Below, piece after piece: positions 15,818 through 28,017 of a stretch of DNA of 28,017 nt (the first letter of the stretch is position 1; each line of letters starts with the position of its first letter). The DNA is from a virus: positions 1 to 28,017 of the IMG/VR virus record IMGVR_UViG_3300025013_000122; one strand, given 5' to 3'. Under the pieces are notes generated by a model, which had not been told where the DNA came from, ran no database searches, and worked only from the letters and a program-made list of their open reading frames with translations. Made by a program: the position numbers and the translations under genes.

Positions 15818-16597
15818 TTAAACGGTTGACAGCGCCGCGCCGTCGTTTGCTGTTACGCGCCACCTGAGCGCGTCGCCGATTGTTACTGCTGTCAGCTTTA
15901 TCATGTCGGCAGCTTCAGCCATTGTTATTGTGTTATTGCCTGCCTGGTTTACGGCCTGTGCCGATGTGATAACGCAGGTTCCGCCGTCAGTATCGATGAC
16001 GAGAACTATCTCCTGCCCGATAACGGTAGGAATTGCCATCGTCCTTGTCTCCGACCCTGCCGTGGTAATGGCGCATACGCCTGATGCCGTAACAGGAATA
16101 GCTCCGGCATCTCCGGGGTCTGTCATGGCGTGTTCAAGGGCATTTGTGCCGACCAGAAACGGATTGAGCAGTATCAATCCGGTAGAACTCGGATTAGCGG
16201 CAGTTTCAGCCGCTATGCCTGCAAGGGTATTGCCGGTTGATGCCGTGGTAAATTCTTTCGCAGTATCGTCCCAGTAAAGTTTAACTCCGGCAGTCCATGC
16301 CTGCGCCGATGTTTTAGCGTATTCGATCAGCCCGCTGATAAGGTAAATATTAGCCGCGTTTGCGTCCGCGCTGTTTATCGCGAGCATCGGAAGGCTGTTT
16401 AACAGATACACCGTGTCCTTGATTGTTGCGGCGGTATGCGTGTAATTCACTGTCCGGATGAGGGACAGATCATCTCTCACTTTAACCGCGCCGATCATGA
16501 ACGGTAATGCTCCGAATCCCGCATAGACAGGGCCGATGTAAACCGCAAGCGCTATAACTATACAGATAAAACTAATTATCAATATTTTTGTCTTCAT
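15818..16597 (-). CDS. DUF2190-like capsid decoration protein with N-terminal signal peptide
   Basis: A 259-aa protein between scaffold and capsid genes. The body (about 40-150) resembles DUF2190-type capsid cement proteins (KLYWDDTAKEFTTASTGNTLAGIAAETA). The C-terminal part (about 160-259) is a Thr/Ala/Gly-rich beta domain (TDGGTCVITSAQAVNQAGNNTITM) like head-decoration trimers. Oddly, residues 1-27 form a textbook Sec signal peptide: MKTK, about 20 hydrophobic residues, then VYA|GF. The start is firm: AGGAGGT lies 9 nt upstream and the ATG overlaps the previous stop as ATGA. An internal start at Met33 would remove it but has only a poorly spaced GGAG. Role in decoration is inferred; the purpose of the leader is unknown. 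Confidence 0.68.
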   Translation of the reverse strand: MKTKILIISFICIVIALAVYIGPVYAGFGALPFMIGAVKVRDDLSLIRTVNYTHTAATIKDTVYLLNSLPMLAINSADANAANIYLISGLIEYAKTSAQAWTAGVKLYWDDTAKEFTTASTGNTLAGIAAETAANPSSTGLILLNPFLVGTNALEHAMTDPGDAGAIPVTASGVCAITTAGSETRTMAIPTVIGQEIVLVIDTDGGTCVITSAQAVNQAGNNTITMAEAADMIKLTAVTIGDALRWRVTANDGAALSTV

Positions 16598-17061
16598 TGC
16601 CTGTAACCTCCTGATTGTCCTGCAGCCAGAAGCTCGTTATGCTTCGGGTCTGTGTAGTCTTTTTTCTTTTCTCCTGAGTGCTGCTCGGCCTCTTTAGCCT
16701 TGCGCTGCTTGTCATCCTCGTCTTTTGACGGAATCTGAAATTCCGCAGGGAACTTCTGCCTTGCCGAGCCCTCATACTTGTCTTTGATCATTTTCAGGCG
16801 GTCAAGCGGAACGGTTTTAAGAAATGCCTCCTCCGCCTTTTGAGAATCCGCGTCAGTGTCTATCTCTCCGATAAGAACGCCGTATTTCACAGCGTCTTTT
16901 ACGAGAGATTCCCTGTAAGCCTTACCTCCCTCCGCAAGAGACTTGAGAGACTTGATTTCCGTATCCTTGTCGTCAAGCATTGACTTTATTTCATCAATCG
17001 CTTTTTCTTCGGAAAACGGCTTACCTAATGCCTTTGCGAGATCTTTTAAAAACTCTTTCAT
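16594..17061 (-). CDS. Nested in-frame scaffold protein (internal start in protease gene)
   Basis: A 155-aa product predicted from an internal ATG at 17061 (MKEFLKDLAKALGKPF at the N-terminus). AAGGAGG (17076-17070) lies exactly 8 nt before this ATG, in the middle of a coding region, at the boundary between the protease domain and the charged helical domain. This is how lambda Nu3 is made from within C. The protein is strongly charged and helical, without cysteines, as scaffolds are. Seen: start, ribosome site, domain boundary. Inferred: independent expression in excess over the protease. Confidence 0.75.
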   Translation of the reverse strand: MKEFLKDLAKALGKPFSEEKAIDEIKSMLDDKDTEIKSLKSLAEGGKAYRESLVKDAVKYGVLIGEIDTDADSQKAEEAFLKTVPLDRLKMIKDKYEGSARQKFPAEFQIPSKDEDDKQRKAKEAEQHSGEKKKDYTDPKHNELLAAGQSGGYRQ

Positions 17062-17718
17062 GCCTTTTCCCTCCTTTTGGGTTTTATTGTCTGCCGATTT
17101 TTGCGCAGAGGCTCCGGGTTGAGCGCCGAGCCAGACAAGCGAGCCTTCAAGCGCTTCGCCTTTGGGCCGGTACTCGCCATATATGTGATTGCCCCTATCG
17201 TCGGTAACATCATAAAACGGGGCTTTAAATCCGATGCTGACAAAACTGCATATGCCTCCGTCAAGCTTTGCCCTAAGATCGGCATTGCTCTCAAGTTTGA
17301 GGATGTAGGCGTCTCCCCATAAGACTTTAACCATCTTCACCTGTGTCGGAAGTCCGCACGCCTCGCCTGTAAGCGCCTGAAACGCCTCCGGGGTCATTTC
17401 TTCGGTGGATGCATCAAAGAAACGGCCTTCGCCGGGGCCTCCGCTGCCGGACCATGACGAAGGATGCCCTGAGTCAAAAAGCCCTTTACCCGGAAGTGAC
17501 GCGGCAAAGTTAGCAAGCAATTCTTCTGTAAACCTCTCATTGTCGCGGTCGATGCAATTATGCGCCAGTAAAAATCTGCGGGCGTAAACCTGATCTGCTG
17601 AAAGCTGCACAGGGGCCAGCTTATTTATTTTGGCGAGCTGCTCATCCGTAAGGGATTTTCCTTCACCGAAACTTTTAGCCCTGAAGCCATAGAGTTTTAT
17701 TCCTTCCTGCATCTTCAT
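16594..17718 (-). CDS. Prohead protease fused to scaffold domain
   Basis: A 374-aa head-maturation protein. Residues about 40-200 form the protease domain, with a candidate catalytic His (H85, FDSGHP) and Ser (S158 or S161 in CSFVSIGF). Residues ~220-374 are a charged helical scaffold domain (Lys/Glu/Asp-rich, ending near PKHNELLAAGQSGGYRQ). The arrangement is that of lambda gpC/Nu3, where a nested in-frame start yields free scaffold. Here a perfect ribosome site precedes Met220 (see the nested entry). The start at 17718 overlaps the upstream small gene as ATGA. It acts in procapsid assembly and is expected to cleave itself and the scaffold. Confidence 0.8.
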   Translation of the reverse strand: MKMQEGIKLYGFRAKSFGEGKSLTDEQLAKINKLAPVQLSADQVYARRFLLAHNCIDRDNERFTEELLANFAASLPGKGLFDSGHPSSWSGSGGPGEGRFFDASTEEMTPEAFQALTGEACGLPTQVKMVKVLWGDAYILKLESNADLRAKLDGGICSFVSIGFKAPFYDVTDDRGNHIYGEYRPKGEALEGSLVWLGAQPGASAQKSADNKTQKEGKGMKEFLKDLAKALGKPFSEEKAIDEIKSMLDDKDTEIKSLKSLAEGGKAYRESLVKDAVKYGVLIGEIDTDADSQKAEEAFLKTVPLDRLKMIKDKYEGSARQKFPAEFQIPSKDEDDKQRKAKEAEQHSGEKKKDYTDPKHNELLAAGQSGGYRQ

Positions 17719-17891: not shown

Positions 17892-17939
17892 TTTGCCTCC
17901 AATGTTTAAAATTATTCATCTCAAAAAATCATTGATATA

Positions 17940-17975
17940 TTCATACCAGATTTTCATTGCATGTTCTGGCAGATT
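17940..17975 (-). promoter_or_regulatory. Candidate phage-type promoter (degenerate copy of the CTTCTGTCAGACC box)
   Basis: Minus strand AATCTGCCAGAAC (17975-17963) matches the 13-bp box found upstream of terS and of the PAPS operon at 9 of 13 positions. It is followed after exactly 17 nt by TATGAAT (-10 hexamer 17945-17940), identical to the terS site. The start would fall near 17933, giving a ~42-nt leader before the 58-aa gene. It lies in the only sizeable gap (90 bp) within the head genes. This copy is weaker evidence than the two perfect ones. Confidence 0.4.
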
Positions 17976-17981
17976 ATCCTT

Positions 17982-20129
17982 TCACGCTTCGCTTGAGGCA
18001 GGTCTTGTGCTGCACCTGCACCTCGGATGCGTATCCTGCACCGGCAGCGGACATTTGCCTATTGAATAATCTCCGCGCAAAGACATACAGATCGGACATG
18101 CATCGGGCGCGGGCGTAAACTCAACCATTTTTACCTTCCACTCTTTCCATTCATCAAGCTTTGCTCTCTCTGCCGCCATGCTCATTTCGGAACGGGCAAG
18201 ACGTTCCCAGTCCGAATTCTGATCTCTAAATAGCTTTTCGAGACGACGGGCAACATCGAGGGGATTGGAGCCTGCGGTCATGTGAGCTTCCATCTCCGGG
18301 ATTATCCGGTCAACGATTGTCCGGGTAGCGGTATCTTTCACAAGCTGAAAGCCGGTTCTCATCATCTCTTCGTAAACCTCACGGTTTTGAATGATGTCGA
18401 GGATCGGCCTGTCTTTGCCGAGAAGGTAGGCAGCCTGAATGAGCCCTGCCGAATAGCTCTGCCCGTAATACCGACGAACAGGGGAATCGGCATTGCTCCA
18501 GTCATAACTGCCCGTCAAATTTTTCAATGCCTGCATAATGGCATTGCGTTGATCTTCGGTAAAGAAAAATGTCTCCATGCCGGGAAGATCGGCGGGCGGA
18601 GCCTTTATCCCCTTTCCCTCCCTCTGGCCACGTATCTTCAATATGGTCAGCGTCCGCTCCTGCAGCTCCGCCCAATCGTCTTTAAGTTTGTTCTCATATT
18701 CAAATTCAATTTTATCCAGATCGGGCCACGGACTTGGCCGACGAAGCTCTTTTGTGATAACCGGCAGCGCCGAGCTTTTACTGATAAGCGTAATTTCATG
18801 ACCGGCAACGTCTACGGTTGCCTGTCCGATCTGCAAATTAGTCTGCGTATTTGATGCGCTTCCGGAGCGCATGAGGTCAGCCTGAGCATTCAGAAAATTA
18901 GCGTTGGCGATGGAGAGGATGTCTCTTAAGTTCGGGGTCTCAAATACGAAACCCCAGTCGCCGGGCTTGTCGAGAAATGTGGTTACTCGTTTCCATTGTC
19001 GCCCCCTGATCCGCAAGAAAGTAGAGAATAACCGGATAAACTGGGGGATCATTGAGAGCTGTCTTATCTTGGCATCCTGCAGCGCGGATTCCACCTCAAG
19101 GGTTGCCATGCGCTCTGTGGTGCTCCAATAAATTCCGAGCATCCACGCGGGGATACCGAACTTTGAAACTATTTGTTCGAGGACATGCCTCAGCGGCACA
19201 TCGTAAGTAAATAACTGCCCGTCGTGGCCGATGACGTTGATTTTCACATCTCCGTCATTGCCGCCTGCAGTAACAATGTCGCCGCTGCCTCCATTGCGCT
19301 TTGATGCGACTATGACTTTCAGAGCGTCTTCAAAGCTCTTGCGAACGGACTCAAGGTCTTTAATATTTGACTTTATATGCCCGTGATACATGGGGTCGCC
19401 GAAGCGTTCTGATGAATTCAATATGCTGTTTTGCAAAGTTACAAGGATTTGAGATACGAATTCCATCGAGCGCATGATGCTTACGCCGTAGGGATCGCCG
19501 TTTTCGTTGCCGATGCTGAAATAAATTTTATTCGCAGGATTGAGTTTTACCTCGTTAATCCCGTTGATCGAAACGGTCTGCCCGTATGTCGCGGTAATGA
19601 TGCGCTCTATCAGCGCTGTCGGCGCGCTGTAGTATCTTTGCGAACTGCCGTCCTGATAGCGATACCACGGGACGGCTGCTCCGTCGGTATTGCGCCTGAA
19701 TACTATGTTTTTACTGTCGGCCACACGCATCCCGGCAATGTCTTTCATGTCCGGCGTCGCCGTGAATTCGGAAAAACTGAAACCCTGCTCAAAGGTCTCG
19801 TTCCATGTGTTTTCGTAAAACGCATGGATACCGGCCTGGGTGTCTCCGACCGGAACCGAGCGGCAGAAGTCTTCAAGCTCCTCGACAAGCGGCATGTTAT
19901 CACCGATTATTTTAATCGTGCCGTTTAACGAAATCAAACGCCTGATGCCGCCGTCAATTGTCGCGATGCCTTCGCGGAGCATCTCATAAAAATCGCCCGA
20001 GACCTTACGGAAAATATAATCCTGAAATATGACGGTCATTGGCCCCTGCGGATTCATGTGCCGGATTTGAGGCTTTACGGATACCGGCTCATTTTTTTTA
20101 AAAATTATTTCTCTGCCGAATATTCTCAT
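17982..20129 (-). CDS. Portal protein fused to a MuF-type C-terminal domain
   Basis: A 715-aa protein. Residues ~1-480 are the portal (dodecameric DNA channel and tail-docking ring), with the DUF935/Mu gp29-like pattern: a front NPQGPMTVIFQDY segment, then WNETFEQGFSFSEF, then LEQIVSKFGIPAWMLGI...ERMATLEVE. Residues ~520-715 are a Mu gpF-type minor head domain, ending in a cysteine/histidine cluster C678-x2-C681, C693, H701-x2-C704-x-C706. In Mu these are two genes; here there is a single reading frame with no internal ribosome site noticed. ATG 20129 overlaps the terminase stop as ATGA, with GGAG 9 nt upstream. MuF domains may be ejected with DNA or carry toxins in other phages; here the domain looks like the plain Cys/His version. 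Confidence 0.88.
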   Translation of the reverse strand: MRIFGREIIFKKNEPVSVKPQIRHMNPQGPMTVIFQDYIFRKVSGDFYEMLREGIATIDGGIRRLISLNGTIKIIGDNMPLVEELEDFCRSVPVGDTQAGIHAFYENTWNETFEQGFSFSEFTATPDMKDIAGMRVADSKNIVFRRNTDGAAVPWYRYQDGSSQRYYSAPTALIERIITATYGQTVSINGINEVKLNPANKIYFSIGNENGDPYGVSIMRSMEFVSQILVTLQNSILNSSERFGDPMYHGHIKSNIKDLESVRKSFEDALKVIVASKRNGGSGDIVTAGGNDGDVKINVIGHDGQLFTYDVPLRHVLEQIVSKFGIPAWMLGIYWSTTERMATLEVESALQDAKIRQLSMIPQFIRLFSTFLRIRGRQWKRVTTFLDKPGDWGFVFETPNLRDILSIANANFLNAQADLMRSGSASNTQTNLQIGQATVDVAGHEITLISKSSALPVITKELRRPSPWPDLDKIEFEYENKLKDDWAELQERTLTILKIRGQREGKGIKAPPADLPGMETFFFTEDQRNAIMQALKNLTGSYDWSNADSPVRRYYGQSYSAGLIQAAYLLGKDRPILDIIQNREVYEEMMRTGFQLVKDTATRTIVDRIIPEMEAHMTAGSNPLDVARRLEKLFRDQNSDWERLARSEMSMAAERAKLDEWKEWKVKMVEFTPAPDACPICMSLRGDYSIGKCPLPVQDTHPRCRCSTRPASSEA

Positions 20130-21979
20130 CGTTTATAGCTCCCTACTGCGAATTGTTCGGAACCGGCAGTCATAAACAGCCGGGAAAGCGTGTGCGCCCT
20201 GTCGGCGTCAATGATATGATCGTCCGATTTACTGTATATCCGATGTTTACTTCCATAGGTACAAGTGTGGCCGGTGTAAGTTGTGACTATATCCGGGTCA
20301 GGCGGATATTCAAGCTCCATCCTCTGCATTTTTTTTACAAGGATGTCGGTGGCAAGCTCCTTCATGGTTATCTTGGCGGGCTTTTCCGTCCTGGCGTCGA
20401 TTATCGGCGTGCCTTCGTCGTCTATATTGTCGAAGGTGGACTCGAACATGAAGCCTTTAAGCCGGTCGTCATAATCCTTGCAGGCGTATTGAGGGAGTCC
20501 CTGCAGGTCATGAGCGACTGCGGAACCTGCATTGCCGAAGTCAGTACCCCATGAAAGTGAGGTCTTCGGCTCGAAAATATCATCCAGCGCGTCGAGCGCC
20601 TGACACTGCTGATCGTAAGTGATGCGCCTGAGTTGCAGCCGGGCGACCATGCGCTCCTTTTTTCCGAGGATCTTCTTTATGATTATTTCCGTGGGGTCGC
20701 CGCTATAGCCGAAGTCGCCGCCGCCTGATTTTAATCCTGCAGCGCCGTCAAAAAAACTCTTGATGAGTTTTCTGAAATCCGATTCATTATTGCCGGCATA
20801 ATCGAAAAAACCTGAGAGCCTGCAAACAGTGTCTAATAGATCGATGAACCGGGGAACAGGCCCGTCGTCACCGGCGATATATTCACATTTGTAGCCGTGA
20901 ATAATCACCTCATTATTGCCGGAATCCACCAGTATCTGGAGGCAACGGTATTCGGGAATGTCCTTAATGCAATACTTGAACTGCTGCCACGGGAATACGG
21001 GATTTGCGGGCTCGCCGTCCTCGCCTTTTATATTATGTTTATAATCCGGAGAGTCCTCGCCGTTATACAGATCCACGTAAAACTTCTTGCGCTCATGAGT
21101 CCAGTACGGCGGAGGCATCAGCTCTTTAGACCATCTGAACGGTTTGAACTTCATTTCTTTGATATGACCGGCAGCGCCTTTGAACGCATCTATCTCAAGG
21201 TTTTCTTCCTCTGTCTTGGCATTGCCTTCGGCCAATTTACTGAGCCTATAAAATTCAGTGTCGCGCCTGCCGTCGGGCACTGAGTAGAGCTTGACTATAC
21301 AGCCGGGCTTGACTGCGCGGAAAAATTCAGACCACTGTTTTACTTTGTCGTCTTTGGCCGCTTCGTCCTTCATTGCAAAGGTGCGGACATGGACGCCTCT
21401 GTACGCCTCGCCGTCATTGCCGGAAGGACGGAAGTATAGCTTAAAGGAATTTGCGAATTTGAAACGGTGATGCGGATGTTTTTTGTGATGGATTAATGAC
21501 GGAGCGAGATCCGGATTGAAATCAAACTGCTCAGTCATGGCCTCGATAATTTCATCGAGGTGAGTCTGTTGTGGCGCTCCAATCAACGCAGAGCCATTTT
21601 GGACGGTAAAAGCTTTGTAAAGCCCGTAGGCCACAATCTCGCGCGTCTTGCCGACTTCTGCCCCGCATTTGTGAATCGTATGGGACGGATAGACGATTGA
21701 TTCCTGCTGATAGCTCCATAGGGAATAAGGATCCTTATGATCCGCATCCTCCGGCTCGCGCAAAAAGGCCGGAACCCAAAGAAGCGGAGAGCTGCAAAAG
21801 CAGGCAAGTTGAAAGGCTTCGAGGCCGGCAAACGGATCGGGGAATTCCCCGCGCGCGAGCTGATGATATGTCCAGTCGAAAGATTGAAGCCACCGCTCCC
21901 AGTCCGCCGCCGGAACGAGGATCCCTTTTTTCAGATCCGCGAGCGCTATAGGCTCAACCGCTTCAAGCATCGGCTTCAT
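20126..21979 (-). CDS. terL: Terminase large subunit
   Basis: The DNA packaging motor (ATPase plus nuclease). Numbered from ATG 21979 (617 aa): Walker A GAEVGKT at 106-112, Walker B-type FAMKDEAA with D205/E206, and coupling and adenine-binding patterns upstream (WSYQQESIVYPSHTIHKCG). The RNase H-like nuclease has acidic residues in GGGDFGYSGDP, LSWGTDFGNAG and HIIDADRA. Start choice is uncertain: ATG 21979 overlaps the small terminase gene by 17 bases with a weak AAGG. A GTG at 22024 and an ATG at 21970 are alternatives. The gene is followed by the portal with an ATGA overlap. Confidence 0.9.
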   Translation of the reverse strand: MKPMLEAVEPIALADLKKGILVPAADWERWLQSFDWTYHQLARGEFPDPFAGLEAFQLACFCSSPLLWVPAFLREPEDADHKDPYSLWSYQQESIVYPSHTIHKCGAEVGKTREIVAYGLYKAFTVQNGSALIGAPQQTHLDEIIEAMTEQFDFNPDLAPSLIHHKKHPHHRFKFANSFKLYFRPSGNDGEAYRGVHVRTFAMKDEAAKDDKVKQWSEFFRAVKPGCIVKLYSVPDGRRDTEFYRLSKLAEGNAKTEEENLEIDAFKGAAGHIKEMKFKPFRWSKELMPPPYWTHERKKFYVDLYNGEDSPDYKHNIKGEDGEPANPVFPWQQFKYCIKDIPEYRCLQILVDSGNNEVIIHGYKCEYIAGDDGPVPRFIDLLDTVCRLSGFFDYAGNNESDFRKLIKSFFDGAAGLKSGGGDFGYSGDPTEIIIKKILGKKERMVARLQLRRITYDQQCQALDALDDIFEPKTSLSWGTDFGNAGSAVAHDLQGLPQYACKDYDDRLKGFMFESTFDNIDDEGTPIIDARTEKPAKITMKELATDILVKKMQRMELEYPPDPDIVTTYTGHTCTYGSKHRIYSKSDDHIIDADRAHTLSRLFMTAGSEQFAVGSYKR

Positions 21980-22886
21980 TGGTCTTGCCTTTTTCTCGCG
22001 CGCGTTGCAAGGCAGCACCGGCACGCCCCATCATCGAGGCGAGGGTTTCAGCTGCTTTATCATCGCTCTCGGTCTTTTTTACTACCAGCGGCGTGATCAT
22101 GAATTGCTGCGGAGTGAGTTCCATAACATCAAGAAGATCCGCGAGAGGTTTTAACGAAGGATGGTTGACTATTTTATAGCCAAGCCGGGCGCCCTCCTTG
22201 CCGAATATTTCGCTTTTCATTAGAGTGCCGTCGATTTTTATGTCTGCGATAAGCATCTCGATGATGTCCATAGTGCCGGCGATCCTCACGGCGGCGGCAT
22301 CTTTAAAATCGTCGAGCTTGCCGGTCTGGATGGCTGTCTGTATCCCGCCGAGCACTTTTAAAAAATCAGCGGCACGATCAAGGCAGACACCGCCGGCAGA
22401 AGTTTCCTTGTCTTTGACCCACTCACAAGGATATTGTTCGCACGTGGACTTACATGGCGCGACCGATTGCCGGATGAGTCCCTCGGCATATTGCCCGTGC
22501 TTCCACGCGTTTTTGTTCCCCTGCATTGCCTCTGCATGCGCGGAACTCTGCGCGGCGCGTTTGCGGGCCTCTATCGCCGCGGCTGAAACGGTGTACGGCC
22601 GCTTGACGCGGAGATGCGGAGGTATACCCTCGCCATCGTATGGTACAAAGGGATTATCCGGCGACGTGGAAGCAGTGGGAGGGGCCTGTGTTGTCGGCTC
22701 TTCGCCGCTCTCCAGTTTTTCAATCTCGGACTTGAGCTTTGCCTGCTGGTTGTTGAGGTCTTCGATCACGGCAGCGGTAACAACCTTACCGGACTTTAAT
22801 TGTGTGCCGGCATTGGTGAGGCTGACGCTGATGAGCGTTAACTGTTGTTTGAGTCGTTTGAGTTTGTCTTCGCGTGATTCTGCCAT
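21963..22886 (-). CDS. terS: Small terminase subunit-like DNA packaging protein
   Basis: A 307-aa protein, first gene of the late operon and overlapping terL. An N-terminal coiled coil (1-65, with KLKRLKQQLTLISVSLTNAG pattern) and a Pro/Thr linker (65-95) are followed by a terminase-like 'GNKNAWKHGQYAEG' segment (KHGxY, about 132-145), common in small terminases. Next come four closely placed cysteines within about residues 152-176 (CKSTCEQYPCEW...GVC), which may bind metal. The helical C-terminal part (200-300) ends with LTPQQFMITPLVV. It is longer than usual TerS. Start ATG 22886 has only AAGG before it and lies 6 nt from a -10 element, so a leaderless message is possible. Confidence 0.72.
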   Translation of the reverse strand: MAESREDKLKRLKQQLTLISVSLTNAGTQLKSGKVVTAAVIEDLNNQQAKLKSEIEKLESGEEPTTQAPPTASTSPDNPFVPYDGEGIPPHLRVKRPYTVSAAAIEARKRAAQSSAHAEAMQGNKNAWKHGQYAEGLIRQSVAPCKSTCEQYPCEWVKDKETSAGGVCLDRAADFLKVLGGIQTAIQTGKLDDFKDAAAVRIAGTMDIIEMLIADIKIDGTLMKSEIFGKEGARLGYKIVNHPSLKPLADLLDVMELTPQQFMITPLVVKKTESDDKAAETLASMMGRAGAALQRAREKGKTNEADA

Positions 22887-22892
22887 GCCTTA

Positions 22893-22928
22893 TTCATAGC
22901 AGAAAAGCCTTTCATGGTCTGACAGAAG
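22893..22928 (-). promoter_or_regulatory. Candidate late promoter with CTTCTGTCAGACC box
   Basis: On the minus strand, CTTCTGTCAGACC (22928-22916), then ATGAAA, then at exactly 17 nt after the box TATGAAT (-10 hexamer 22898-22893). The same box, W-TGAAA continuation and 17-nt spacing to TATAAAT recur at 27843-27878. There is no TTGACA at -35, so an activator or alternative sigma factor is likely. The start is predicted near 22886, at the terS ATG. It sits right after a rho-independent terminator, where a late promoter is expected. Confidence 0.6.
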
Positions 22929-22948
22929 CGCAGTTATAGTGGGTCAAT

Positions 22949-22982
22949 AAAAAAATCCCCTTGCCGACAGTGGCAAAGGGAT
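22949..22982 (-). terminator. Rho-independent terminator ending the early/accessory minus-strand unit
   Basis: Minus strand ATCCCTTTGCC - actgtc - GGCAAGGGGAT (stem of 11 with one mismatch) followed by seven T residues (22955-22949). It ends transcription of the 159-aa gene unit just before the late promoter, separating the two programmes. Confidence 0.88.
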
Positions 22983-23012
22983 TGCAATAAAATCAGCGGT
23001 AGAATGTTTACA

Positions 23013-23492
23013 TCATATCATGCCGCCAAGTATTTCGGAGGCTTCCTTGACTATCTCGCGGGCCTCTGCTACGGCTGCACTTTTAAAGCTACCCTTTGTT
23101 TTTTCGAGCATTTCGGCGGAGGTCTCAAGGCGGGTCATGATTTCAGTCAGGCGGACGGCGAGGTTTGTTTTCCCTGAGAGGTATGAGTCAAGGAGAGAGC
23201 CATCTCCAAGAGCCCAAAATCCGACGGCCCATAATTCAAGGAAAATCGCGTCCAGTGCTGACAGTGCTTTTATTTTGTCGTACATTTCGAGGCGGTTGAC
23301 TCCCCATTTTTCTTCGTATTGTCCGGGGTAGAGGTCAAAGCTGTCCTCAATCTGGACGGTGAGGTGTTGGCCTAAAATGCCAGGGGTCAGGGCCATGCCG
23401 TTGAAAATATCAATGAGCATGGATTGTTCACCCCTTGTAAAGTTGCGCCTTGCCATGTCCATTGCCGATGATAATACTGTGATAATTTGCAT
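23013..23492 (-). CDS. Hypothetical phage protein (159 aa)
   Basis: A predicted mostly helical soluble protein: MARRNFTRGEQSMLIDIFNGM near the start, a DSFDLYPGQYEEKWGVNR segment around residues 49-66, then long helices, ending KEASEILGGMI. No catalytic motif, membrane segment or signal peptide is present. Start ATG 23492 has AGGAGG 4 nt upstream; an internal ATG at 23459 is a possible alternative. It lies between two terminators and upstream of the late promoter, so it may be made by read-through and could act near the early-late switch or in packaging. It was not recognised. Confidence 0.72.
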   Translation of the reverse strand: MQIITVLSSAMDMARRNFTRGEQSMLIDIFNGMALTPGILGQHLTVQIEDSFDLYPGQYEEKWGVNRLEMYDKIKALSALDAIFLELWAVGFWALGDGSLLDSYLSGKTNLAVRLTEIMTRLETSAEMLEKTKGSFKSAAVAEAREIVKEASEILGGMI

Positions 23493-23505
23493 AATGCCTC
23501 CTGGG

Positions 23506-23534
23506 TAAAAAAATAAGGGGGCACTGCGGCCCCC
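23506..23534 (-). terminator. Intergenic terminator/attenuator between the 346-aa and 159-aa genes
   Basis: Minus strand GGGGGC - CGCAGT - GCCCCC followed by TTATTTTTTTA. A strong six-pair GC stem with a U-rich tract, 11 bases after the 346-aa stop. As the next gene's ribosome site follows at once without an obvious new promoter, it probably attenuates expression of the 159-aa gene. Confidence 0.8.
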
Positions 23535-23544
23535 CCGACAAATC

Positions 23545-24585
23545 CTAAAAACCAGCCTTCTTCAACTCGGCGGAATACTTTTCACGGCGTCCATTGCCTG
23601 CTGCAATTCTGGCGGCTATCTCAGCGCGGGTATATGTGGATGAGCAATCTAAATTGTAATCCTCACAAAACGACTCAACTCCTGTCCGGCAAAATCCGAG
23701 GGAGAGGGCAAATTGCATATCAAGTGCCTCATTATCGTGCGCTATTTGGGCCTCGCGTTTAGCACGGAGGCCTGCTATTGCCTCTGTTATGGTTGCTGCG
23801 TGATAGGTATCGTCTCCGGCAACTACGCAATAGTCAACGAGTTGCAGGGCAAATGTGCGGCGGTAAATCTCAACCCCTGCGATGGTGCGGACAGGTTCTA
23901 CCATAACGTATTCGTTTAGCTGGATGCGGCGGAGATGTTTAGGGTATTTGATTTTTGCGAGGTCGAGATCCTGAGCGATGGCGTGATACATATAGTTACC
24001 CCGGAATGCATCTACGGGGATAGACCGGCTAACCTTGTATGCGGATGCGCTGGATGCATCAAACTCTAACCTCTCAACCCGGCGACTGCTGATGGTGACG
24101 GCTGGGCCGTGTGCGCGGTGCCAGCCCTTGCTGTATGTGCTATAGCTGCGGTGCTCATCCTGGTTGTGGCGATATACTACATCACCTATACGCATACCTA
24201 CAGTATCAAGAATTTTTGACCATTCCGCTTGCCGCGCCGCAACGATACGTTGCCTGCCTGGTGTATTGGGGTCGTTAGGATCATAGCCTCTCTCTGTGAG
24301 GATGTGGTCAGCATTGCGATCTATGCGTACCAACCAATTATAGCGTTTCCATGCGTCGCGAGGAGACATGAGGCGGGGATCGCCTGCGCCGAATCCGTTA
24401 CCCGGACGGCAGTACCGCATTACCTCATGAGGAGCATTTGCACCGTAACGGGGGTTGATTAGTTTGCCTACAATAGGCCTGGGGGAGTGTGCGAGCAAGA
24501 ATTTCCACGCGCCTGATTTGGTTTTTGCTGCGGAGCCTCTGGATTGTGCAACCTCAACAATGGATTTGTGGGGATATGTTTTCAT
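23545..24585 (-). CDS. Hypothetical protein (346 aa), first gene of a promoter-driven unit
   Basis: A basic, tyrosine- and arginine-rich soluble protein. Regions of note are an opening KSGAWKFLLAHSPRPIVGKL (about 24-42), a PRDAWKRYNWLVRIDRNADHIL section (about 75-96), a KGWHRAHGPAVTISSRR segment near 155, a GDDTYHAATITEAIAGLRAKREAQ section (about 260-285), and a C-terminal CEDYNLDCSSTYTRAEIAARI stretch that could be a small helical DNA-binding-type domain. Seven cysteines are present without zinc-finger spacing. The start has AGGAGG 8 nt upstream and sits on a ~96-nt leader behind a near-consensus promoter, so it is probably well expressed. I do not recognise the family; a role as an early host-takeover or regulatory protein is only a guess. 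Confidence 0.72.
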   Translation of the reverse strand: MKTYPHKSIVEVAQSRGSAAKTKSGAWKFLLAHSPRPIVGKLINPRYGANAPHEVMRYCRPGNGFGAGDPRLMSPRDAWKRYNWLVRIDRNADHILTERGYDPNDPNTPGRQRIVAARQAEWSKILDTVGMRIGDVVYRHNQDEHRSYSTYSKGWHRAHGPAVTISSRRVERLEFDASSASAYKVSRSIPVDAFRGNYMYHAIAQDLDLAKIKYPKHLRRIQLNEYVMVEPVRTIAGVEIYRRTFALQLVDYCVVAGDDTYHAATITEAIAGLRAKREAQIAHDNEALDMQFALSLGFCRTGVESFCEDYNLDCSSTYTRAEIAARIAAGNGRREKYSAELKKAGF

Positions 24586-24655
24586 CTCTGCTGCCTCCTG
24601 TCTCCCACCCCTTGCCTCTCTCTGATGAGGCCCGACCGGGAGATCGGTGATTTGT

Positions 24656-24672
24656 CAGGGGCGAGGCCCCTG
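24656..24672 (-). promoter_or_regulatory. Hairpin at the 5' end of the leader RNA
   Basis: A perfect CAGGGGC-CTC-GCCCCTG stem-loop starts about 9 nt after the predicted transcription start (near 24681) of the 346-aa gene. A second weaker pairing (CCGA...TCGG, 24631-24647) follows. There is no U-tract, so it is not a simple terminator. It may stabilise the message or regulate translation of the ~96-nt leader. Confidence 0.55.
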
Positions 24673-24687
24673 CTTACTACTATCTAT

Positions 24688-24716
24688 ATAATACATCATT
24701 TAATGTCCCGTGTCAA
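24688..24716 (-). promoter_or_regulatory. Sigma-70 promoter for the 346-aa gene unit
   Basis: Minus strand TTGACA (24716-24711), a 17-nt spacer, TATTAT (24693-24688): 11 of 12 consensus positions. The -35 overlaps the stop codon of the upstream RHH gene and sits in an ACTTGACA half-site, like the palindrome at 25676-25701. RHH binding there would block RNA polymerase (inferred). Confidence 0.85.
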
Positions 24717-24904
24717 GTCTTTTTTTTGCCTGCCTGTTTTGGGCTATTTGCCCTGCAAATATCGTGTCGAGCCAATATATAGAGGCAGTAAGTGTTCAGC
24801 GGCAATCCATCCTCAGCCGCCGCCTCTTTGAGCGCCCCATATAATGATGTTGGCAGGCGCAGGGTCAGGCGCGTGGCTTCTTGTTTTCCTGGTAACTGCT
24901 TCAT
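24713..24904 (-). CDS. Ribbon-helix-helix (Arc/HicB-type) DNA-binding protein A
   Basis: A 63-aa protein. Residues ~11-46 match the RHH pattern: a beta strand TRLTLRLP, then helix A SLYGALKEAAAED, the G-x-P-x-N turn, and helix B TYCLYILARH. RHH dimers bind short inverted repeats and usually repress their own promoters; HicB antitoxins carry the same 'LRLP..L...LK.AA...G.SLN.Y' signature. A Lys-rich tail (KQAGKKKT) follows. It is coupled to the radical SAM gene by an ATGA overlap. It has a paralogue of similar size on the opposite strand at 25775. No toxin-like HicA gene is adjacent. Confidence 0.8.
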   Translation of the reverse strand: MKQLPGKQEATRLTLRLPTSLYGALKEAAAEDGLPLNTYCLYILARHDICRANSPKQAGKKKT

Positions 24905-25629
24905 GCTGCAACCGCCTGATCTGCCAGGTATGCGGCAAGGTCTTTTTTGATCATGTATTTCACTCCCATATGTTCCAGTAATGCCTTTGCTCTCCGGGCA
25001 AATGATACCCAGTCAATCTCTTTTGCCCGCTTATCATGGTTCCACTTCCCGACCTTATAAATATCAACTATCCCATTGGTCATCTCAATCAATTCCAATG
25101 TCTGTTTAGGGTCAATCACCGGCTCAAAACTGGCCCATGTGGTAATGCCTCTGGCCTTAGCCTGTTTCAGCGCCTCGATCCTTTCAGCAGGCAACGCCGC
25201 GCCGGGCTCCCACACGCGCGAATCTGCATCATTTGTAAATGTGAGAGTTGCACCGTATTTGTCCGCCGCCGTCAGTAGATCAAAATCAGCCATGCTGCGC
25301 TTGCCGCCCTTGGTAAGTATCGCCACATGAGCGCCACCGGAATGCAGGGCCTCTATCGCCTGGCGCGTGATTCCAGTGCCAGCCGCAAAACTTGAATACG
25401 GATCACAGGTAAAGCAAAGCAGGACTTCGTGTCCTTTATATGCAGCCGCTTCCTTCCTGATTTGCTCGACTATCCCCGGCCTGTTTCTCACCTGCCCAAA
25501 AGCTTCCCGCGTTTTGTACGTTGCTGATGGGGCATAACAATAGGTGCATCCGTGATCACAGCCATGATACAGGTTTGCAGCGAGATCATTGTACTCTTTT
25601 GCTTTTCCTCTCGGCTCATAAATTATCAT
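24901..25629 (-). CDS. Radical SAM enzyme (SPL/Rv2578c-like family)
   Basis: A 242-aa radical SAM protein. The [4Fe-4S] motif is C24-x3-C28-x2-C31 in YHGCDHGCTYCYAP, preceded by the family opening YEPRGKAKEYNDLAANLYHGC. SAM-binding strands include VLLCFTCDPYSS (about 69-80), HVAILTKGG and WASFEPVIDP. This opening places it near the spore-photoproduct-lyase-like group, whose members act on nucleic acids. The actual substrate is unknown; the family is also called generally 'radical SAM protein' in phages. It has no C-terminal extension. It is transcribed divergently from RHH B with a palindrome between and is coupled by ATGA to RHH A. A DNA or nucleotide modification role is inferred. Confidence 0.85.
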   Translation of the reverse strand: MIIYEPRGKAKEYNDLAANLYHGCDHGCTYCYAPSATYKTREAFGQVRNRPGIVEQIRKEAAAYKGHEVLLCFTCDPYSSFAAGTGITRQAIEALHSGGAHVAILTKGGKRSMADFDLLTAADKYGATLTFTNDADSRVWEPGAALPAERIEALKQAKARGITTWASFEPVIDPKQTLELIEMTNGIVDIYKVGKWNHDKRAKEIDWVSFARRAKALLEHMGVKYMIKKDLAAYLADQAVAA

Positions 25630-25675
25630 ACTTTTCTCCTTGGCTTCCTTGGATTTACAGCATGATAATAGTTTG

Positions 25676-25701
25676 ACTTGACATCGGCTATAATGTCAAG
25701 T
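25676..25701. promoter_or_regulatory. Perfect 9-bp palindrome between divergent genes (candidate RHH operator)
   Basis: ACTTGACAT - cggctata - ATGTCAAGT: exact inverted repeat with an 8-bp spacer, 47 bp from the radical SAM start codon. The half-site recurs at 25739-25746 (CTTGACAT, overlapping the -35 of the RHH B promoter) and at 24711-24718 (TGTCAAGT, overlapping the -35 of the 346-aa promoter). The dyad is in the only divergent promoter region of the window, next to two RHH genes. Operator function is inferred. Confidence 0.65.
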
Positions 25702-25739
25702 GTTTTATTTGGTAATAAAGTCAATAGGTTGTGATTGCC

Positions 25740-25768
25740 TTGACATCTCCGGCGACATTATATATAAT
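25740..25768 (+). promoter_or_regulatory. Perfect consensus sigma-70 promoter for RHH B-ASCH
   Basis: TTGACA (25740-25745), 17-nt spacer, TATAAT (25763-25768): 12 of 12 consensus with ideal spacing. The expected start (~25775) coincides with the ATG of RHH B, predicting a leaderless transcript. Such a strong promoter usually needs tight repression, which fits the adjacent half-sites. Confidence 0.9.
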
Positions 25769-25774
25769 ATCAAA

Positions 25775-25939
25775 ATGATTAAAAAAGAAAAAACGACCAA
25801 AACACAACCGCAAGCGCTTATGTTGAGAATACCCCGAACTCTTCACGCTGATATATTGAGGGCGGCAGAGGCGGAGGGTGTATCTCTCAACCAATATTGT
25901 ATCTATATATTGTCCGGCGCGGTGGGGAAAAAACAATGA
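25775..25939 (+). CDS. Ribbon-helix-helix (Arc/HicB-type) DNA-binding protein B
   Basis: A 54-aa protein: a Lys/Thr-rich arm (MIKKEKTTKTQPQ), a strand ALMLRIP, helix A TLHADILRAAEAEG, and helix B SLNQYCIYILSG. It is clearly the same family as RHH A (shared 'LR.P..L...L..AA...G..LN.YC.YIL'). The start at 25775 was preferred over an upstream frame extension because the promoter -10 lies at 25763-25768; no SD is present, consistent with a leaderless message. It likely binds the ACTTGACAT-type sites around its own promoter. It ends in an ATGA overlap with the ASCH gene, so the two are co-translated. Confidence 0.85.
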   Translation: MIKKEKTTKTQPQALMLRIPRTLHADILRAAEAEGVSLNQYCIYILSGAVGKKQ

Positions 25940-26337
25940 AAGCTCTATCTATCCGCCAGCCATGGGCCTCAATGATCGCAAGCGGCAAAAAAACAATTGA
26001 AACGCGGACATGGGCTCGGGATTATCGGGGGGATATCTTAATTGTTGCGGGGCTGGCACTCGCGGGGGGATACAACATCCCCCGAAAACTCCTTAATGAT
26101 CTCCCGCGTGGACAGGCTATAGCAATCGCCAGGCTGGTTGACTGCCGACCGATGACCCGCGCGGACGAGAAAGCCGCCTGCTGCGAAATCTACAACGGAG
26201 CTTTTGCCTGGGTGCTGGAGGACATCAGGCGGATCAATCCGTTCCCGGTGAAGGGGAAGCTGGGCCTGTTTGAAGTTTTGTTTGAAGCAGACGACCATCC
26301 ACGTATCTATTATCCGGCAACTCAAGGGCATCAGTAA
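25936..26337 (+). CDS. ASCH-domain protein
   Basis: A 133-aa protein with the ASCH (ASC-1 homology) beta-barrel, related to the PUA fold. It has the N-terminal signature MKALSIRQPWASMIASGKKT-IETR, a GDILIVAGLAL strand (about 34-44), AIAIARLVDCRPM (about 60-72), and the closing WVLEDIRRINPFPVKGKLGLFEV (about 92-114). ASCH proteins bind RNA or modified nucleosides, and some hydrolyse N4-acetylcytidine. The residue set for that activity was not verified. The last ~20 residues lie outside the domain and overlap the ParB-like gene on the opposite strand. Translation is coupled to RHH B by ATGA. Confidence 0.88.
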   Translation: MKALSIRQPWASMIASGKKTIETRTWARDYRGDILIVAGLALAGGYNIPRKLLNDLPRGQAIAIARLVDCRPMTRADEKAACCEIYNGAFAWVLEDIRRINPFPVKGKLGLFEVLFEADDHPRIYYPATQGHQ

Positions 26338-26974
26338 AAACTTTCCTCTCAGCAGATCCTTTAAAAACCACTACCAGATAACAATCCATTACATCATCAG
26401 CCTCTTCCAGTTTTTTTTGCACGTCCTTGAAGGCTTCGCGGGAGGCGCGGAGTTGATCGGATAGCGTCATCAATCGGTCGGCTGTGTCGTGGAGCGGATC
26501 GTCACCGAGGGTCTGGTAGACCTCGGCCAGGGTGAAGCCGGTGAGTTCAATGTCAAAATCAACGTCAGCGCTGAGTTCCTTAAAAAGTTCTCCAAGTTTT
26601 TCTTCATCCCAGTCGCCGCCTTGCGCGTTGGCTGCGATGTTGGCGGCTTTCTCCCTGAGAGCGTCCCAACTGACTTCCTTATAAGTGTATTTCTCCCCCT
26701 CGATAATTATAAATCCATGCGCTACCGTGCCGGTGCGGGAGGGTTCGTTAAAGCGTTCGGTAATTTCTATTACAGCGTTTTTAGGGATTACACTGATGCG
26801 CTGATGTCCGCCGACGAGATTGCCGGTGAGGATGTTTTTTATTATGCCACTCAGATCGCCGTATTCAAGCAATGCTTTTTTCAAGCGATCTCGTTCTTCC
26901 TTGGTGATGGTGCGTGGGTTGTAATCAGCGGCGCATTTCTTGAGGTCTCCAGCGGTGGCGGGGTCAAAGCTCAT
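26234..26974 (-). CDS. ParB-like nuclease-domain protein (IbrB-like)
   Basis: A 246-aa protein. The ParB N-terminal domain spans about 8-80, with YNPRTITKEERDRLKKAL (N19-P20-R21), GDLSGIIKNILTGNLVGGHQR (GGHQR at 55-59, the nucleotide-binding box) and a following short sheet. A helical middle (95-205) and a closing strand segment (VVVFKGSAERKVF...RYVDGRLL, about 200-230) follow. Phage ParB-like proteins of this shape often pair with PAPS-reductase-like proteins, as IbrB with IbrA. AAGGAGA lies 5 nt before ATG 26974, which overlaps the upstream stop as ATGA. Its 3' 104 bases overlap the ASCH gene tail-to-tail. Confidence 0.82.
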   Translation of the reverse strand: MSFDPATAGDLKKCAADYNPRTITKEERDRLKKALLEYGDLSGIIKNILTGNLVGGHQRISVIPKNAVIEITERFNEPSRTGTVAHGFIIIEGEKYTYKEVSWDALREKAANIAANAQGGDWDEEKLGELFKELSADVDFDIELTGFTLAEVYQTLGDDPLHDTADRLMTLSDQLRASREAFKDVQKKLEEADDVMDCYLVVVFKGSAERKVFTDALELPDNRYVDGRLLQTKLQTGPASPSPGTD

Positions 26975-27666
26975 GCCATTCTCCTTTTGAGTTTATTGGG
27001 TTTTGGGCCATACCATTTATTGCGATAAACCGGGACTTCAGCAAAAGGGAAAAGCTGAAGGATTTTTTTGAAGTCGTCGGGATATTTATCATGCAGCCAG
27101 ATTAGTGTGCGCTCAGACAGGTCTATGCCTGAGACGTTGCCCTCTGCCGAGTCGGGCAGTGGAATATTGTGCAGCTTGCAGTATGCGAGGACTTCGTATT
27201 TATTCCAGTCTTTAAGCGGATTGATGACGCCGGGTGTCTCTTGAGAGAGATTGCGGCGACGCCACATGGTGTCTGATTTCTTTTGTCCAAGGGCGACAAG
27301 CCAGAGGCCTGTGTCTTCACGGGCAAGGGCAAAGATGTCATTAGGTTTGAGGTCGGGGATGTTGTCGTGTTTGTGGCTGGGATTACAATAAATGCCCTGT
27401 TTAAGAAAACGGCTCAACAACCAGTGAGGATATTGGATAACTTCAACGCCGTAGCGGTCTTCTGCATATTTGATCTGCTGCTCGCAAATGGATATGCCGG
27501 GAACAAGATACATATAAAAACAGATGACGCGCTTGAAGACTTTAGTGCAGAGGTCCAGGACTATGAGGCTGTCTTTACCGCCGGAATAACCTACAAGAAC
27601 TTCAGGATTAAAAGCAGCCTGACGCTCCAGAGATTGAAAGGTTTTAGTAAAGATGTTTTCTGCCAT
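26971..27666 (-). CDS. PAPS reductase-like PP-loop protein (IbrA-like)
   Basis: A 231-aa adenine-nucleotide alpha-hydrolase-fold protein. The PP-loop SGGKDS is at 28-33, within LVGYSGGKDSLIVLDL. Also present are a GQKKSDTMWRRR segment (about 127-138), an INPLKDWNKYEVLAYCKLHNIPL helix-turn (about 147-170) and a YGPKPNKLKRRMA end. True PAPS reductases carry a catalytic Cys near the C-terminus; none is seen in the tail, so it probably adenylates or thiolates another substrate. Phage-borne forms adjacent to ParB-like genes (IbrA/IbrB) affect gene expression. No SD is seen before ATG 27666. It is the second gene of the promoter-box operon. Confidence 0.85.
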   Translation of the reverse strand: MAENIFTKTFQSLERQAAFNPEVLVGYSGGKDSLIVLDLCTKVFKRVICFYMYLVPGISICEQQIKYAEDRYGVEVIQYPHWLLSRFLKQGIYCNPSHKHDNIPDLKPNDIFALAREDTGLWLVALGQKKSDTMWRRRNLSQETPGVINPLKDWNKYEVLAYCKLHNIPLPDSAEGNVSGIDLSERTLIWLHDKYPDDFKKILQLFPFAEVPVYRNKWYGPKPNKLKRRMA

Positions 27667-27686
27667 AAATTAGGAGTAAGAAAGCG

Positions 27687-27708
27687 GGAAGGGGATTGCT
27701 CCCCTTCC
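27687..27708 (-). promoter_or_regulatory. Perfect 9-bp hairpin between the Gly/Lys peptide and PAPS-like gene
   Basis: On the minus strand GGAAGGGGA - gcaa - TCCCCTTCC, 20 bp before the PAPS-like ATG. There is no U-tract directly after it (CGCTTTCTT), so termination would be partial at best. As the gene has no SD, the hairpin may gate translation or process the message. Confidence 0.6.
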
Positions 27709-27727
27709 GTTGCGAGGAATGGCGTCG

Positions 27728-27814
27728 TTATCCGCCGCCGCCCCCACCGCCGCCTTTGCCACCCTTACCGCCTTTGCCACCCTTACCGCCTTTTCCTGCT
27801 TTGCCTTTAGCCAT
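27728..27814 (-). CDS. 28-aa Gly/Lys-rich peptide
   Basis: A very short gene starting at ATG 27814 with GGAGG 6 nt upstream and stopping at TAA 27730-27728. The product begins MAKGKAGKGGKGGKGG and ends in a run of Gly; it contains only Met, Ala, Lys and Gly. Its DNA is a tandem GGCGGTAAGGGTGGCAAA-type repeat. It is first in the operon behind the perfect promoter box. It could bind nucleic acid non-specifically, or it could be a leader peptide whose translation controls the hairpin and the PAPS-like gene. Existence as a protein is supported by the strong ribosome site; function is unknown. Confidence 0.65.
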   Translation of the reverse strand: MAKGKAGKGGKGGKGGKGGKGGGGGGGG

Positions 27815-27842
27815 TTGGCACCTCCGGAGATTTGATGGCTAA

Positions 27843-27878
27843 TTTATAACATAATCTGGTTTCAAGGTCTGACAGAAG
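27843..27878 (-). promoter_or_regulatory. Candidate phage-type promoter with CTTCTGTCAGACC box (PAPS/ParB operon)
   Basis: Minus strand CTTCTGTCAGACC (27878-27866), T-TGAAA, and after exactly 17 nt from the box TATAAAT (-10 hexamer 27848-27843). It is identical in box and spacing to the terS promoter. The predicted start near 27836 gives a ~22-nt leader containing GGAGG for the Gly/Lys peptide. It lies just beyond the stop of the gene upstream. Confidence 0.6.
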
Positions 27879-27882
27879 ACCG

Positions 27883-28017
27883 TTATTTCAGTTCAGTACG
27901 TGTATTGATCCTAACGGCCCCCTCATCTTTTGTTTCCGTCTCGATTTTATAAGCCTTGGTAACAGACCCCTTGTTAAGATTGATTTCGACCTGGCCGGTC
28001 AGATCCCCGAGGCCAGG
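27883..28017 (-). CDS. C-terminal part of an unrecognised gene (runs off the window)
   Basis: The last 44 codons of a minus-strand gene, stop TAA at 27885-27883; the 5' end is outside the window. The visible part (PGLGDLTGQVEINLNKGSV, then a Thr/Glu/Lys-rich strand pattern ending RINTRTELK) is hydrophilic and beta-like, with alternating polar residues. No family can be named. It is followed by the promoter box of the next operon. Confidence 0.6.
   Translation of the reverse strand, partial: PGLGDLTGQVEINLNKGSVTKAYKIETETKDEGAVRINTRTELK

Follow-up and report, generated by a model that had tools for sequence, protein, structure and literature searches.

Three elements in this phage DNA, each made of a palindrome at a fixed distance before an extended -10 sequence, are probably late promoters activated by a phage protein of the Mor/C family (PF08765) acting at the palindrome; we give this reading, drawn from sequence comparison, a probability of about 0.8. 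The window analysed is a whole viral record of 28,017 bases. Each promoter would combine a sigma70-type extended -10 (TGN-TATRAAT) with a dyad-symmetric site standing in for the -35. The activator, an early product whose gene would lie upstream of terS, would bind the dyad as a dimer or multimer and recruit host RNA polymerase, which would start the terS-TerL-portal unit and the unit of small protein, protease and capsid genes at once; in the window phage, a Gly/Lys-PAPS-ParB unit would be switched on together with these head-gene units. Binding of Mor to the dyad, activation and late timing are predictions, and the description of the promoters as late appears well grounded, because the genes after the sites (terS, protease, endolysin) are late genes.

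The composite element in the window

A sequence-only reading had singled out a 13-bp box, CTTCTGTCAGACC, present exactly at 22928-22916 and 27878-27866 on the minus strand, in intergenic DNA just before operons, and followed after 17 nt by TATGAAT (the copy at 22916-22928) or TATAAAT (that at 27866-27878). All of this holds, and the window has no other copy at up to two mismatches. The weaker third copy that it had placed before the head-assembly genes is also there (AATCTGCCAGAAC, 17963-17975, minus), matching at 9 of 13 positions and with the same N17-TATGAAT arrangement. The W-TGAAA said to follow the box is found after two of the copies but not after the third, where ATGCAA takes its place and TGAAA comes four bases further on. 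The repeat is real, but a bare 13-bp repeat is unremarkable (the window has 61 repeated 13-mers, against a mean of 19 in shuffles), and we rejected it as evidence by itself. The non-random feature is the composite. Its informative core is a 9-bp palindrome, TCTGNCAGA, which the window has exactly three times, always between genes and not equally often inside them; the extended -10, TGNTATRAAT, is also found at exactly three places, and all three of each pair up as TCTGNCAGANC-N14-TGN-TATRAAT, with a single fixed spacing and on the minus strand (22892-22926, 27842-27876 and 17939-17973). These composites are co-directional and intergenic, each lies directly before a gene unit, and even a loosened form of the composite was met in none of 300 dinucleotide shuffles.

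No TTGACA-like -35 hexamer is present at any of the three sites, as had been claimed, and none of the three is among the sigma70 promoters listed for the window. Since the same phage has ordinary sigma70 promoters elsewhere (for example a 12/12 match at 25740-25768, plus strand), the missing -35 is a feature of this promoter class, whose element joins a palindromic core to an extended -10 and has no -35. The near-perfect promoter at 25740-25768 and another at 24716-24688 (minus, 11/12) flank two HicB/CopG-like ribbon-helix-helix genes and a radical SAM (DUF5131-like) gene, an arrangement that is possibly an early or lysogenic switch.

The first of the three promoters, P-terS (22892..22928, minus), comprises the box at 22916-22928, a dyad core TCTGTCAGA at 22918-22926 (centre 22922) and the extended -10 TGC-TATGAAT at 22892-22901. 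Directly upstream of it, an intrinsic terminator with a 12-bp stem and T7 (22954..22983, minus; -19.6 kcal/mol, z -4.2) is predicted to isolate P-terS from transcription of the preceding unit. The genes that follow, all on the minus strand, are the putative terminase small subunit gene terS (21963..22886), recognized from its position and because the gene preceding TerL in all relatives is homologous to it; TerL (20126..22024), which had no match in Pfam or PHROG and is identified from its place in the gene order and from its distant similarity to a protein annotated as terminase; and a portal protein fused to a minor-head (MuF-type) domain (17982..20129). P-terS has its predicted +1 at 22886, on the first base (A) of the terS start codon ATG. 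Two relatives show this exact coincidence of terS ATG and predicted +1 too (L003:7502 and L010:4900), and the terS mRNAs of these three phages may therefore be leaderless.

P-head (17939..17975, minus) has the box AATCTGCCAGAAC, a dyad core TCTGCCAGA at 17965-17973 (centre 17969), the extended -10 TGG-TATGAAT at 17939-17948 and a predicted +1 at about 17933. The first gene of its unit encodes a small basic, Lys-rich protein of 58 aa (17933-17718), and the second a putative prohead protease (16594..17718, minus), conserved after the portal gene and named by position, its PHROG match being of unknown function. The first ORF after the protease-side site is likewise a small Lys-rich protein in L008, L009, L012, L013 and L021, and this protein often has a KDFxGSGVEGxK-like stretch. 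P-PAPS (27842..27878, minus) has its box at 27866-27878, its dyad core at 27868-27876 (centre 27872), the extended -10 TGT-TATAAAT at 27842-27851 and a predicted +1 at about 27836. It is followed, again on the minus strand, by a 28-aa Gly/Lys-rich ORF read directly from the sequence (27728..27814, preceded by GGAGGT) and by genes for a PAPS-reductase-like protein (PF01507; 26971..27666) and a ParB-like protein (26234..26974).

Counterparts in related phages

Ten related loci, in IMG/VR and in genomes of Desulfobacterota and Nitrospirota, were found by searching with TerL (TerL identity 45-75%); pattern scans added L017, L018 and L019/L021. The motif search over the phage and its relatives that had been proposed finds the composite again, at the position of terS, of the protease or of both, in L003, L008, L009, L010, L012, L013, L015, L017, L018 and L021, most relatives carrying it at both head-gene places. 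In L003, the nearest relative, which comes from a 43.5-kb record, the element stands ahead of terS and ahead of the protease gene and nowhere else in the record; G001, 43.5 kb and scanned whole, has only these two head-gene sites. An extra copy in L015 precedes a GH108 endolysin gene (a lysis gene, hence late). Between extra promoter copies in that locus (L015:7703-9195) lie a Gp49/HTH pair and a BrnT/BrnA toxin-antitoxin pair. Conservation and gene position thus give good support to the proposal of a phage-specific promoter class that turns on late genes together with the PAPS/ParB unit.

In relatives the full site spans 25 bp and is palindromic (TGACAT-NNN-CTGNCAG-NNN-ATGTCA), with its centre 23 nt before the extended -10 and with no -35, and the 13-bp box of the sequence-only reading is better described as such a dyad with a CTGNCAG centre. 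More distant phages have a full form TRACA-N4-CTGNCNG-N4-TGTYC-N8-TGN-TA. The palindrome can be nearly or exactly perfect (TGACATGATCTGCCAGATCGTGTCA in L021; exact in L011, TTACCTCATCTGCCAGATGAGGTAA, with outer arms altered relative to the standard site), and in the window, L003 and L010 the outer arms are weak, missing or asymmetric, with the -10 kept. In leave-one-phage-out profiles the expected sites were the best matches in each motif-bearing phage tested. A profile built from relatives only placed P-head first and P-terS second among 55,950 positions in the window; P-PAPS (27842) ranked only 19th of these, because its outer arms differ. The protease copy of L012 lacks a good -10. The standard site was not found in L014 and L016, which both carry Mor, and dyads of other sequence, sought in these two and in Microcystis phage MACPNOA1, gave nothing convincing.

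Might the dyads instead be intrinsic terminators between operons? In L011 the site forms a perfect hairpin with T9 after it (-21.5 kcal/mol, z -6.9), and the terS site of L021 is similar by sequence; but sites in the window, L003 and L012 form no such hairpins (z 0.8, -1.0, -1.3, -1.8 and -0.6), and the window has its separate good terminator directly before P-terS, so that we give this explanation very little credence. In L011 itself (L011:16165-16215), the exact 25-bp palindrome doubles as a strong hairpin with a U9 tail, and the promoter site may overlap a terminator there.

The late-promoter reading also fits the distribution of the pattern in larger collections. An exact scan for the full form over all viral contigs found six contigs, all from this phage group, and in all six every site lay before terS or between portal and protease genes. 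In seven host genomes the good matches fell inside prophages, and a control reading of the pattern had no matches. Two of the matches, in the genomes of L010 and L015 but on separate contigs, stand before protease genes; they are the sites that the L010 and L015 fragments lack. The short form, CTGNCAGNNC-N14-TGNTATRAAT, had 12 matches among viral contigs; except for that on the L003 contig, none has head genes of this group or Mor nearby, which is chance level, and we rejected this form. A scan with the L003/L010-type site found one 9,863-base contig, equal in length to L010 and probably identical with it, and a scan with the window-specific site for other contigs of the same phage reaching past 28017 found no match.

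A Mor/C-family protein as candidate activator

What might act at the dyad? Among relatives with enough upstream DNA, 11 of 11 encode a PF08765 Mor/C-family protein upstream of terS, and Mor/C is the sole regulator-like family among the gene families common to the relatives; the other shared upstream genes are those for a primase-like protein and for a tyrosine recombinase, the latter directly before mor. In L018 mor is followed directly by the site, and the site by terS. Compared with solved structures, the Mor profile matched Mu Mor (1rr7) at E 3.6e-10 and Mu C (9l0x) at 2.6e-7; an AlphaFold model of a relative's Mor (pLDDT 92.8) had Mu Mor or C as all of its top seven fold matches, the TM-scores of the relatives' proteins to Mu Mor/C being only about 0.5-0.6. 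By sequence and predicted fold, therefore, these proteins appear to belong to the Mor/C family. The Mor protein of L003 (L003:1609-2100) is longer, at 163 aa, and its N-terminal part seems to be repeated (by eye and from a double BLAST match).

The end of the Mor HTH reads RRIV or RKIV in nine phages with the CTGNCAG centre, L011 included, and RELIT and RNILD in L014 and L016, which lack the site. It is suggestive that this end tracks the presence of the site, a correlation confounded by kinship since L014 and L016 are also the most distant. The window contains no mor gene: it ends 139 bases past the last box, and because it stops before the place where mor is expected, we infer the activator of the window phage, whose mor gene would lie beyond base 28017.

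The sequence-only reading had left the choice between an activator and an alternative sigma factor. The absence of TTGACA and a conserved upstream box at fixed spacing would suit a phage-encoded sigma factor, but the -10 follows the extended -10 consensus of sigma70, and the 25-bp palindrome upstream is of a kind that fits a dimer and not sigma region 4. The relatives have no sigma-factor family in common, and the Sigma70_r4 matches are weak HTH matches to members of the Mor family themselves. Such a factor is very improbable, and it is the activator half of the proposal that stands, with Mor/C in 11/11 relatives and a dyad-symmetric site. Nor is it likely that the dyad is the operator of a repressor (CI-like or other) that silences intrinsically active extended -10 promoters in lysogens, with no activator needed. 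A palindrome overlapping a promoter is also a normal repressor layout, extended -10 promoters can function without a -35, and G001 has a CI-like HTH gene (L006:6292-6672); however, a scan of the whole of G001 found credible sites only before late genes, with none near the CI-like gene or early genes, and no CI-like family is common to the relatives, whereas Mor is.

The tyrosine recombinase gene lies directly upstream of mor in all relatives, mostly overlapping it (L003:639-2100 and homologues). The same order, of recombinase, a Mor-resembling 134-aa protein with no Pfam match, a terS-like gene and TerL, is seen in Microcystis phage MACPNOA1 (KY697807.1:143-1641). That the dyads are core sites for this conserved recombinase, an idea to which their 25-bp inverted arms around a short centre, like those of Xer/integrase cores, lend some appeal, seems highly unlikely: the copies are direct repeats flanking the essential terS-TerL-portal genes, so that recombination between them would delete these genes; the conserved downstream N8-TGN-TAT would be left unexplained; and the arms are eroded in the window, L003 and L010, yet the -10 is kept.

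Comparison with T4 and Mu, and what it means

The proposed activation by a Mor/C protein at a site in place of the -35 has parallels in other phages. T4 middle promoters consist of a MotA box and an extended -10, the MotA box being short and asymmetric and acting with AsiA. They resemble the promoters described here in having a phage activator box instead of a -35, before an extended -10; the site here differs in being dyad-symmetric, and no MotA or AsiA family turned up in the gene set that the relatives have in common.

The closer comparison is with Mu, whose Mor and C proteins work at sigma70 promoters through dyads that overlap the -35 or take its place (PMC4287176, PMC4390567, PMC4461284). 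The dyad bound by Mor is 16 bp long and has its centre at -43.5, in a promoter with neither a -35 nor an extended -10 (PMC4287176, PMC4390567), and four late promoters have related dyads to which C binds (PMC4461284). Shared with Mu Pm are a phage PF08765 activator, a sigma70 promoter without a -35, a dyad in the -35 place and A-rich (UP-like) DNA before the dyad, present in many relatives here too (PMC4390567, PMC4287176). The differences are that Pm has a 16-bp element with 5-bp inverted repeats and no extended -10, as against a 25-bp dyad with a CTGNCAG centre and an extended -10 here; that the dyad centre is 23 nt from the -10 here (at about -35), compared with about 31.5 in Pm if its -10 starts at -12, so that the site is about 8 bp closer to the -10 than in Mu; and that here the head genes would be driven directly, in phages in which tyrosine recombinases, instead of a DDE transposase pair, were found among the genes examined. 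The promoters Plys, PI, PP and Pmom offer another likeness, with one activator of the same family serving several late units (PMC4461284), and with lysis and accessory units under the switch (mom as accessory in Mu; PAPS/ParB in the window and endolysin in L015). The sequence and spacing of the Mu C sites differ from those here, and a single Mor/C paralogue was found upstream of terS in each relative, compared with the Mor-then-C cascade of Mu.

Because the relatives' proteins appear to be of the Mor/C family and the site does not have the Mu geometry (16-bp element, centre -43.5), we call these promoters a variant of Mor/C-activated promoters. It is a tentative further step, and one on which we would not yet rely, to see in them a distinct mode of Mor/C action, in which the activator would sit on a 25-bp palindrome at about -35, at the place of sigma region 4, in combination with an extended -10, and in which the terminase mRNA of some phages would start at its own AUG. 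The different geometry can be compared with the recent polymerase structures of Mu Mor and C (9l0y, 9l0x).

The place of the window's PAPS/ParB pair on the predicted late switch points to a late role for the pair, on progeny DNA or the host for instance, and not to one in lysogeny. More generally, these comparisons provide a predicted late regulon and a likely activator for a little-studied group of phages of Desulfobacterota and Nitrospirota, together with a site pattern specific enough to find such phages in raw metagenomic DNA, and they would extend Mor/C control from Mu-like transposable phages to tyrosine-recombinase phages, with a different promoter geometry.
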